Assembly (NCBI GenBank): GCA_903900845.1
Contig: CAIUOU010000083.1
Location: 1 to 64,000 of the forward strand
Reading direction: 5' to 3'
Source of the DNA: an uncultured Opitutia bacterium
GTDB lineage: Bacteria > Verrucomicrobiota > Verrucomicrobiia > Opitutales > Opitutaceae
DNA length: 64,000 nt
Below, piece after piece: positions 8,777 through 59,327 of this stretch. Position 1 is the stretch's first letter; each line of letters starts with the position of its first letter. The translations under genes were made by a program, and so were the position numbers. A model generated the notes under the pieces. The model was not told the DNA's origin. It did not search any database and was given only the letters and a program-made list of their open reading frames with translations.

Positions 8777-8830
8777 AGCGGATGTCAGGCGGCCAGGATT
8801 TCCCCGGCCCAATCGGAGGTTGCTAGGCCT

Positions 8831-8915: not shown

Positions 8916-11813
8916 ATGCAAAACACCCGCCCGTATTCCGTGGGCGTGATCCAGGCCACCCGGTCCTGCTTCCACGCCCTTCTTCATCGCGGCGCCGCGG
9001 CGCTCGTCGCCCTCGCGCTGCTCGCGATCCTGCCGGCGCCGGCTTCGGCGCAGAGCAACACCGCCGGCGCCCTCGTCGGCAAAGCCAAGGCCGGCTCTCT
9101 CGTGACGGCCGAACAGGTCGGCACCGGAGCCAAGCGCTCGGTGGCCGCGGAAGCCGACGGCACGTTCCGCATCGGCGCTCTGCCGACCGGCACCTACAAG
9201 GTCACGTACACCGACGCTTCCGGGAAATCCCGCACCGAGTCGGCCGACGTGAGCCTCGGCACGAGCACCGAAGTGGGTGGCGACGTGGTGCGCATCGACA
9301 AGTACGTGGTCTCCGCCGGCTCCATCAACCCCGTCGACTTCCGCAGCACCGAGGCCGTGACGGTGCTGAATGAGAAGCAGATCGCGTTGCTGCCGGTCGC
9401 GCGCGATCCGCAGGCGATCGCCCTGCTCGCCCCCGGCACCGCCCAGGGCGTGAGCGCGTTCGGCAATCTCGTTTCCTTCGGCGGCGCCTCCGTGGCCGAG
9501 AACGCCTACTTCGTGAACGGGTTCAACATCAGTAATTTCCGCAACGGGCTGGACCCCGCTTCGGTCCCCTTCGAGCTCTACAACGACTTCGAGATCAAGA
9601 CCGGCGCCTATTCCGCGGAGTTCGGCCGCTCAACCGGCGGCGTGATCAACACGACCACCAAAAGCGGCTCCAACGAGTACAAGGCCGGGGCGAACTTCTA
9701 CTACTCACCCGACGCCGGCCGGTGGAACTCGCCCGACGTCTGGTACGTGAACGACGCCGGCGCGAGCACCCCTTACATCTACAACAAGCGCGACTACGCC
9801 GAGTCGTGGCAGGCCAACGCCTACGCGAGCGGCCCGCTCTGGAAGAACCGGGTGTTCTTCTACGGCCTCTACCAGCTGCGCGACGCGACGCGCGAGGATG
9901 TCACCACCGAGGGCACGCGTTTCTCCCGCTCCTACTCCAGCGACCCGTTCTGGGGCGCCAAGATCGACATCCTGCCCTTCGACGGCCACCGCCTCGAGTA
10001 CACCGGCTTCCGAGACGAGCGCCGCAGCACCGGCGAGAGCATGAACTACACGATGGCCACCGGCGCCATCAGCGGCACGCCCTCGATCTCCTACGCCGAC
10101 CGCGGCGGCACGACCCACATCGGCCGCTACACCGGCATCTTCTTCGAGAAGCTCACGCTCTCCGCGATGTACGGCACGAGCACCCAGAACCGCACCAGCT
10201 CGGGCACCGATGACGCCGTGCCCTTCATCTACGACGGCCGTTCCGGCAGCCTCGTTTACGTGCAAGGCAACCCCAACCTCACGGTTTCCACCGCAAGCGA
10301 CGAGCGTAAGGCCATGCGCTTCGACGCCGAGTTCCCCTTCACCTTCCTCGGCTCCCACCGCATCCGGGCCGGCATCGACGGCGAGGACAACCTCTCCAAG
10401 GACAACACCAAGTACTCCGGGGATCTCTACTACCGCTACTACGCGATCCCGGCCAGCCGCACCATCAACGGCGCCCCCGTGCCCGCCGGCGCCACCGCCG
10501 CGGTGCGCACCCGCATCTACCGCAACGGCGGCTCCTTCCAGGTGAAATCCAACGCGTGGTACGCCGAGGACAACTGGACCACCATGGGCAACCGCCTGGT
10601 CATGCGCCTCGGCCTCCGCGGCGAGTCGTTCGAGAACCTCGACGCCCAGGACAAGGTCTTCATCAAGGTCACCAACCAGCTCGCCCCGCGCCTCGGCGCC
10701 TCCTTCGACCTCGGCGGCGACCAGAAGACCAAGCTCTTCGCGAACTGGGGCCGCTACCATCTGCCCGTCGCCTCCAACACCAACGTGCGCCTGGCCGGCG
10801 GCGAGTTCTTCACCGAGAAGTACAACGTCCTCACCTCCGCCGACGCCGGCGGCAAGAACCCCGTCCTCGGCGCCCAGATCGGCAACCTGACCACCTACTC
10901 CGACGGTTCGGTCAAAGACCGCCGCGAGATCGTCGACATGGAAGTCCGCCCGATGTACCAGGACGAGATCGCGCTCGGCATGCAGCGCGCGATGAGCAAG
11001 AACCTCTCGGTCGGTGCCCGCTATGTGAACCGCATGCTGGAAGGCACGGCGATGGACGACCTGATCGTCGACCACGCGCTCACCGCCTGGGCCAAGACCA
11101 ACGGCTTCCCGCGGTTCGACGCCAGCGGCGTGCACGCCTACGTGCTCGCCAATCCCGGCCAGCCGATCCGCATGTACTGGGACTTCAACGGCAACGGCAC
11201 CCTCGACTCCAACGAGCAGGCGCTGCTGACGCCGCAGCAACTGCAGTACCCGTCGGCCGTCCGCAAATACCACGCCGTCGAGCTCTTCGCCGAGCGCATG
11301 TGGGATGGCAAGTGGTCGGGCCAGATCTCGTACACCTGGGCCCATTCCTACGGCAATTACGAGGGCTGGGTACTCTCGGACAACGGCCAGGCCGACGCCG
11401 GCATCACGCAGATGTTCGATTCGCCGCTCCTCACCCGGAACACCTACGGGAACCTGCCGAACGACCGCCGGCACCAGATCAAGGCCTTCGGCGCCGTGGC
11501 CCTCACCAGGGACCTCACCCTCGGGCTCAACCAGTATGTCTCCTCCGGCCGCCCCAAGAACCGGATCGGCACCGCGATCGACGCCATCGCCGGCAACTAC
11601 GGCTCCGCCTACCTGCTCGAGCCCCGCGGCTCGCTCGGCACCACCGACTCCATCTGGCGGACGGACGTGGCCCTCACCTACCGCCCGAAGTGGTGGTCGA
11701 AGGCCCGTAGCCTCACATTCCAGCTCGATGTCTTCAACCTGTTCAACCGCCGCGGCGTGACCGAGGTGTTTGAGAACGCGGAGAACGCCGCCGGCGGCAT
11801 CGAGCGCAAGTAA
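8916..11813 (+). CDS. TonB-dependent receptor, Oar-like, with CarboxypepD_reg-like domain; appears C-terminally truncated
   Basis: ATG 8916. Signal peptide, plug LLAPGTAQGVSAFGNLVSFGGASVAENAYFVNGFNISNFRNG, SAEFGRSTGGVINTTTKSGSNEYK, beta-barrel ...FQLDVFNLFNRRGVTEVFENAENAAGGIERK then TAA. The tail GLPTSWQPSRSTRLAVGIEF* follows in the same frame. Confidence 0.9.
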   Translation: MQNTRPYSVGVIQATRSCFHALLHRGAAALVALALLAILPAPASAQSNTAGALVGKAKAGSLVTAEQVGTGAKRSVAAEADGTFRIGALPTGTYKVTYTDASGKSRTESADVSLGTSTEVGGDVVRIDKYVVSAGSINPVDFRSTEAVTVLNEKQIALLPVARDPQAIALLAPGTAQGVSAFGNLVSFGGASVAENAYFVNGFNISNFRNGLDPASVPFELYNDFEIKTGAYSAEFGRSTGGVINTTTKSGSNEYKAGANFYYSPDAGRWNSPDVWYVNDAGASTPYIYNKRDYAESWQANAYASGPLWKNRVFFYGLYQLRDATREDVTTEGTRFSRSYSSDPFWGAKIDILPFDGHRLEYTGFRDERRSTGESMNYTMATGAISGTPSISYADRGGTTHIGRYTGIFFEKLTLSAMYGTSTQNRTSSGTDDAVPFIYDGRSGSLVYVQGNPNLTVSTASDERKAMRFDAEFPFTFLGSHRIRAGIDGEDNLSKDNTKYSGDLYYRYYAIPASRTINGAPVPAGATAAVRTRIYRNGGSFQVKSNAWYAEDNWTTMGNRLVMRLGLRGESFENLDAQDKVFIKVTNQLAPRLGASFDLGGDQKTKLFANWGRYHLPVASNTNVRLAGGEFFTEKYNVLTSADAGGKNPVLGAQIGNLTTYSDGSVKDRREIVDMEVRPMYQDEIALGMQRAMSKNLSVGARYVNRMLEGTAMDDLIVDHALTAWAKTNGFPRFDASGVHAYVLANPGQPIRMYWDFNGNGTLDSNEQALLTPQQLQYPSAVRKYHAVELFAERMWDGKWSGQISYTWAHSYGNYEGWVLSDNGQADAGITQMFDSPLLTRNTYGNLPNDRRHQIKAFGAVALTRDLTLGLNQYVSSGRPKNRIGTAIDAIAGNYGSAYLLEPRGSLGTTDSIWRTDVALTYRPKWWSKARSLTFQLDVFNLFNRRGVTEVFENAENAAGGIERK

Positions 11814-11876
11814 GGCCTGCCCACCTCCTGGCAGCCGTCGCGCTCCACGCGCCTCGCGGTCGGGATCGAGTTCTGA
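11814..11876 (+). pseudogene. In-frame residual C-terminal beta-strand of the preceding TonB-dependent receptor, separated by one TAA codon
   Basis: Codon-by-codon reading after TAA (11811-11813): GGC CTG CCC ACC TCC TGG CAG CCG TCG CGC TCC ACG CGC CTC GCG GTC GGG ATC GAG TTC TGA = GLPTSWQPSRSTRLAVGIEF*. Confidence 0.8.
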
Positions 11877-11901: not shown

Positions 11902-11932
11902 GACCCCCGCCTCACCGCGGGGGTCTTTTTTT
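11902..11932 (+). terminator. Rho-independent terminator
   Basis: GACCCCCGC-CTCACC-GCGGGGGTC-TTTTTTT: perfect 9-bp GC-rich stem followed by T7, 25 bp after the TGA that closes the extended TBDR reading frame. Confidence 0.9.
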
Positions 11933-15171: not shown

Positions 15172-15267
15172 GCCGGGACGGCGCCGGGAAAGGGCAACCA
15201 CGGATGGACACGGATAAACACGGAGGCGGAGCCGGGCCCGATCCGGGAATCAGGGACAGCCCCTTCG

Positions 15268-15448
15268 TTTATCCGCGCCATCCGCGAAATCCGCGGTGAA
15301 AAGTCCGGGGACTTCAGAACCGACTTCGGCCGTCCAGCCCACGACATGGTCCGGGGTCGGCGACCCCGGCTACACCAAGCCCGGCTTGTCCGTGTCCATC
15401 TGTGTTTATCCGTGGTTGAACCCTCGTGAAGCTGTTCGGCAACGCCTT
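15268..15448. repeat. Modular intergenic repeat element, locus 2 (opposite orientation to locus 1)
   Basis: tttatccgcgccatccgcgaaatccgcggtgaaaa / acttcggccgtc / gtccggggtcggcgaccccggctaca / tccgtgtccatctgtgtttatccgtggttgaaccctcgtgaag. Confidence 0.75.
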
Positions 15449-15625
15449 AAGATGCCATGGACGGTTAGCCCGAACGACACCTCGGTTGCGGCGGATCCGC
15501 GCTGTGCTCATTGGTGTGCGTCCGCCGTTACCCTCGCGCGGAGCGGTGCGAAGGCGCCTCAGGACTCAAAGGCTGGTGACGGCAAACGACGCTTCGGTTT
15601 CGGCGGCGTCGCGCTGGGCCCATCC

Positions 15626-20604: not shown

Positions 20605-20780
20605 TTTTATCCGCGCCATCGGCGAAAACCGCGGTTAAAACGCGGAGCGGATCGGGAGAGCCTTCGGCCGTCGCAGATCCAAAATGGGTCCGCGGCTGGC
20701 AGCCGCGGCTACAGCAACCCATGGCCTCCTTATCCATCCGTGGTTACTCACCCGCGAAGCGCTTCGGGAGCGCATTACGA
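20605..20780. repeat. Modular intergenic repeat element, locus 3
   Basis: ttttatccgcgccatcggcgaaaaccgcggttaaaa / ccttcggccgtc / ggtccgcggctggcagccgcggctaca / ccttatccatccgtggttactcacccgcgaagcgcttcgggagcgc. Confidence 0.75.
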
Positions 20781-20851
20781 CCTTTCGGCCTGGCTCTCCG
20801 CACGTTCCGCGTCCCCGGGTTGGGACTAGTTCCGGCGCGGCGTGACGCGCG

Positions 20852-41777: not shown

Positions 41778-41791
41778 CCTCCCGTCCCAAG

Positions 41792-41847
41792 GGGTCAGGG
41801 CGTTTTTTGTTTAACCGGCCCCTCAAACAAAAAACGCCCTGACCCCA
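41792..41847. repeat. Palindromic element, copy A of GGGGTCAGGGCGTT family (perfect 22-bp arms)
   Basis: GGGGTCAGGGCGTTTTTTGTTT - aaccggcccctc - AAACAAAAAACGCCCTGACCCC; arms 41792-41813 and 41826-41847. Confidence 0.95.
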
Positions 41848-41893
41848 TCGGCCTTGCCCCGTCCCCCGGGGCGGTTCCACTCTCAGCTCCCCC

Positions 41894-48262: not shown

Positions 48263-48277
48263 AGCCTCCCCCCCAAA

Positions 48278-48349
48278 GGGGTCAGGGCGTTGAACGTTTG
48301 CCGCGCGCCTCGTAAAGACGGCCCTGCAAACAGAAAACGCCCTGACCCC
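48278..48349. repeat. Palindromic element, copy B of GGGGTCAGGGCGTT family (imperfect arms)
   Basis: GGGGTCAGGGCGTTGAACGTTTG ... CAAACAGAAAACGCCCTGACCCC, in the intergenic space before the esterase gene. Confidence 0.9.
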
Positions 48350-48463
48350 TCTTTCGGGGGCCGTATCAACCCGTGTCGATCCGTGGTTGCTCTCCGCAGT
48401 CCACTTCGGAATCGCCTTCCGCCGCGACGGCGGAGCAGGTTCACCACTTTAACCCCGCCCCTC

Positions 48464-59248: not shown

Positions 59249-59262
59249 GGACCCATCCCCAA

Positions 59263-59319
59263 GGGGTCAGGGCGTTTTTTGTTTATGCCCAACCCTTAAA
59301 CGTTCAACGCCCTGACCCC
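59263..59319. repeat. Palindromic element, copy C of GGGGTCAGGGCGTT family
   Basis: GGGGTCAGGGCGTTTTTTGTTTA - tgcccaaccct - TAAACGTTCAACGCCCTGACCCC. Confidence 0.92.
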
Positions 59320-59327
59320 ATAACCAA

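Follow-up and report, generated by a model that had tools for sequence, protein, structure and literature searches.

A premature stop codon before the predicted last barrel strand of an Oar-like TonB-dependent receptor in an Opitutaceae draft genome

The Oar-like TonB-dependent receptor gene at position 8916 is interrupted by a single TAA, behind which the normal C-terminus of the receptor family lies intact and in frame. The probable cause is a recent nonsense mutation specific to this lineage, most likely an inactivating one, and the affected gene is one of about 118 receptors. The window, which is the whole stretch of 64,000 nucleotides that was analysed, corresponds to contig C83 in a draft genome of 4.4 Mb and 205 contigs, a number that suggests a metagenome-assembled draft. 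The named relatives of this genome are draft genomes of Opitutaceae and other Verrucomicrobiota.

The receptor gene and its dormant tail

The combination of a CarboxypepD_reg domain, a plug and a barrel is the domain layout of Oar-type proteins (PMC6434023). Like Oar-type TonB-dependent transporters (PF13620, PF07715 and a barrel), such as Oar of Myxococcus xanthus, the receptor at 8916 has a plug and a large barrel; its N-terminal extension is CarboxypepD_reg-like, with a PF13620 score slightly below the curated cut-off. It differs from them in that it ends before the last strand. In the Pfam search, Plug and OMP_b-brl_4 were found over the cut-off, and the outer-membrane barrel with a TonB-receptor fold is present as a PF25183 match of 66.9 bits. 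The features of the locus are as follows:

8916..11813, + strand: Oar-like TonB-dependent receptor in its present reading, 965 codons plus the premature TAA (Pfam, translation)
9078..9275, + strand: CarboxypepD_reg-like N-terminal extension, residues 55-120 (PF13620, E=6.3e-07, 30.1 bits, just under the cut-off of 32.3)
9345..9644, + strand: TonB receptor plug domain, residues 144-243 (PF07715, 30.2 bits, cut-off 23.9)
11811..11813, + strand: premature TAA, codon 966, Tyr or Phe in homologues (alignment column, homologue codons)
11814..11873, + strand: in-frame tail of 20 codons, intact and untranslated, GLPTSWQPSRSTRLAVGIEF (alignment to the homologue C-terminus, profile score)
11844..11870, + strand: codons 977-985, modelled as the last strand of the barrel in the read-through form; the BAM signal usually lies in this region (AlphaFold2, pLDDT ~90)
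11874..11876, + strand: ancestral stop TGA (aligns with homologue stops)
11902..11932, + strand: intrinsic terminator with a 9-bp stem and T-run, 3' of the ancestral stop (scan)

Translation from the ATG at 8916 gives a product of 965 amino acids that ends in FENAENAAGGIERK (..GGIERK) directly before the TAA. The first-pass annotation had located the stop and the in-frame tail up to the TGA correctly, both in coordinates and in sequence. It had described the receptor as 997 amino acids long; an open reading frame of that length does exist, from an upstream TTG at 8820, but it is not the one that starts at the ATG. The aromatic-ended C-terminal strand that carries the BAM signal is absent from the present product (..GIERK), although the gene is descended from intact members of the family, and the aromatic end sits behind the TAA. 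The profile score of the tail is inside the range of intact relatives and the terminator is in place, which agrees with the earlier statement that neither of them is degraded. An oddity of the tail is Ala981, a position occupied by Ser in 26 of the 27 homologues.

Repeats were also observed elsewhere in the window. Three related imperfect palindromes are located at 41778-41848, 48265-48351 and 59250-59321, with arms like AAGGGGTCAGGGCGTTTTTTGTTT, and these presumably resemble the REP-type repeats mobilised by tyrosine transposases. A dispersed intergenic repeat (ACCACGGATGGACACGGAT.. and TTTATCCGCG..) is found at 443-546, 15181-15460 and 20606-20782, and the related genome G026 contains numerous copies of it.

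Receptor ends in homologues and in the same genome

The family search covered 252 genomes and gave a strong match in 31 of them, the window's own genome included. The end alignment consists of the 27 homologues that reach the C-terminus. At the column of the TAA, 22 of the 27 have Tyr and five have Phe; all of them continue into the tail, where the final residue is Tyr (17) or Phe (10), and none of the 27 read through the site has a stop there. The TAA as the normal end of the family is thereby ruled out. Since the tail can be aligned with the conserved C-terminus of every homologue and the TAA falls on a Tyr/Phe column, the read-on is not a matter of chance, and the tail is the normal C-terminus of the family, as the first-pass annotation had recognised. 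A single change of a Tyr codon to TAA, which had also been proposed there, explains the stop, because the homologues have Phe or Tyr at this position (mostly TAC, some TAT) and none of them stops at ERK; this is the homologue pattern that had been predicted.

The nearest homologue with sequence at the site, at ~75% identity, reads VDRK-Y-GVASSWQAPRSVRLSVGLDF (RK-TAC-GV). No close strains of the window genome were found, the nearest being G026 (~91%), in which the contig ends at codon 745, short of the site, and the next syntenic contig begins past the receptor gene. Among viral contigs, no relatives were found.

A premature stop that is missing from orthologues and is followed by homologous sequence, as found here, is what marks a nonsense pseudogene or null allele. 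Nonsense pseudogenes and null alleles of outer-membrane receptors combine a single premature stop, an intact downstream frame and relatives without such a stop, all three of which are seen in the receptor at 8916. The difference is that the break comes just 21 codons short of the end and leaves nearly the whole protein encoded.

With 118 Plug matches in 4.4 Mb, the genome has a very large set of receptors. End regions were read for 106 receptors, and the 100 with a stop inside the available sequence form the basis of the census. Their final residues are F (78), L (13), Y (3), R (3), W (1), G (1) and K (1), giving 82 aromatic ends in total, and the one ending in K is the receptor at 8916. The aromatic ends that had been reported for the other receptors of the window are seen in this census as well. 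The stops used are TGA in 82, TAA in 10 (including the receptor at 8916) and TAG in eight of the 100, and the dormant TGA is thus a typical receptor stop in this genome.

Further early-stop receptors were looked for among the five that end in R, G or K, and were rejected, as reading on in frame leads to an aromatic, family-type terminus in the receptor at 8916 only. A second receptor (contig C92, near 17340, L220) has a frameshift some 40-50 codons upstream of its end, and another frame runs to a normal aromatic end (..ITAGVSGRF, stop).

Age of the stop and the possibility of an error

Branch counts were made for the window lineage versus G026, with G003 as the outgroup and three neighbouring genes as the control. 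On the window branch, the ratio of nonsynonymous to synonymous changes is 34/55 for the receptor and 62/159 for the three neighbours (p=0.10), and the neighbouring sulfatase-like gene has a branch excess similar to that of the receptor. Relaxed selection in the window lineage had looked suggestive in a first count (36/55 versus 19/67) and was dropped, because the sulfatase-like neighbour is equally biased and the excess of the receptor is not significant. Judged from these sequences, a gene-specific decay of the receptor does not appear clear, which would fit a recent event and would equally fit an error. With the tail and terminator intact and no clear gene-specific decay, the stop is therefore either recent or an error.

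The main rival to a nonsense mutation in the lineage is that the TAA arose as an error in the sequence or assembly, or stems from a minority allele that became the consensus in a draft from a mixed population, while the common allele of the organism is intact. This is possible, but clearly the less probable of the two. The 205-contig state of the genome, a gene body without clear relaxed selection, a tail that has not been eroded and the presence in the same assembly of the C92 receptor, with its single frameshift and intact alternative frame, are all in line with it. However, the site is neither a homopolymer nor a repeat, and short-read assemblies rarely contain consensus errors of a single base. 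In addition, other genomes of the family have comparable single breaks, though these genomes are mostly drafts too.

Within the same receptor family, one gene of a Candidatus Didemnitutus draft genome is frameshifted near codon 850 and one of G056 near codon 834, and a paralogue of G003 contains a TAG. Matches to an unrelated control, the S1-domain gene at 2869, which we take to be Tex-like, were examined among 148 genomes and contain three or more in-frame stops. From this base rate in the family, the C92 receptor and the control gene, it follows that one or two breaks among 118 receptors are unremarkable, whether caused by mutation or by assembly error. For a draft genome with about 118 receptors, one isolated premature stop is ordinary and within the range seen elsewhere.

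Three members of the family with one frameshift or stop in an otherwise intact gene are located at L070 near 8478 (Candidatus Didemnitutus draft genome), at L008 near 1900 and at L032 (codon 784 of the match).

Barrel assembly and the meaning of the allele

The read-through protein was modelled with AlphaFold2 using 31 aligned sequences, and the truncated form with the same relatives. The read-through model has a mean pLDDT of 81.2 and places strands at 969-972 and 977-985; the second of these reaches ~90 and is the final barrel strand, which falls inside the lost tail. In Foldseek, solved TonB receptors dominate the matches of the read-through form (FusA, PirA, FpvA and FepA, E down to 7e-35). 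For the truncated form, the mean pLDDT is 76.5; residues 941-965 have a confidence of ~39-60, with 946-965 below 50, and residues 261-290, which lie at the first barrel strands, decrease from ~86 to 65-77. A loss of confidence in these two regions would be expected if both flank the missing strand, and is suggestive only, as AlphaFold is no measure of folding.

Most outer-membrane proteins engage BamA through a C-terminal beta-signal, GXX-aromatic-X-aromatic, and those with defective signals are removed with the involvement of Skp and DegP (2026 review, PMC13067283). According to the preferred explanation, the conserved aromatic codon 966, most likely Tyr, would have changed to TAA in the window lineage. 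The frame now stops 21 codons short of its ancestral end, and the missing part holds the predicted last barrel strand and the aromatic C-terminus. The product would not have the C-terminal strand from which BAM normally starts assembly, and its barrel would be unable to close. The receptor would then fail to insert and would probably be cleared by periplasmic quality control, making this a loss-of-function allele. Loss of receptor function is the consequence best supported by these considerations. As the remainder of the gene still appears to be under constraint, the change would be recent, and the loss is probably tolerated since the approximately 118 Plug matches represent many other receptors.

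Two related readings depart from a fixed loss of function. The stop may be a standing polymorphism in the population, with the receptor switched off in part of the cells (e.g., under selection by phages or bacteriocins that use the receptor as a door), or the truncated receptor may still be assembled via an internal signal; taken together, these are improbable. Just as improbable, or slightly more so, is that the truncation is tolerated and leaves a functional receptor, with the preceding strands and an internal signal sufficing for assembly. Some outer-membrane proteins without a C-terminal beta-signal are known, and an internal signal located five strands before the C-terminus has been described (PMC13067283), which together with the lack of a clear gene-specific relaxation would allow for such a variant. 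Nevertheless, none of the 27 homologues is shortened in this way, and the truncated model is less ordered on either side of the missing strand.

Translational read-through or recoding of the TAA, giving some full-length receptor, is very unlikely. The intact, in-frame tail is compatible with it, but a TAA with G as the next base terminates efficiently, and TAA is an ordinary receptor stop in this genome. Moreover, the absence of a stop at the site in relatives means that there is no conserved recoding signal. Reversible on/off control by slippage, inversion or cassette exchange is hardly credible: phase variation is known for outer-membrane receptors of other bacteria, but a base substitution has no built-in fast reversal, no simple repeat, notable local inverted repeat or invertible element was found at the site, and neither a second copy of the tail in the window or the genome nor a shufflon elsewhere was found. 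Both alternatives had been raised in the first-pass annotation and find no support.

Read as a recent nonsense mutation, the receptor at 8916 represents a clean natural case in which a TonB receptor retains everything but its last strand, and this carries little weight by itself. Automatic annotation will score this gene as intact, and this calls for caution. If the allele is real, it would offer a ready opportunity to test whether assembly in Verrucomicrobiota needs the terminal strand.
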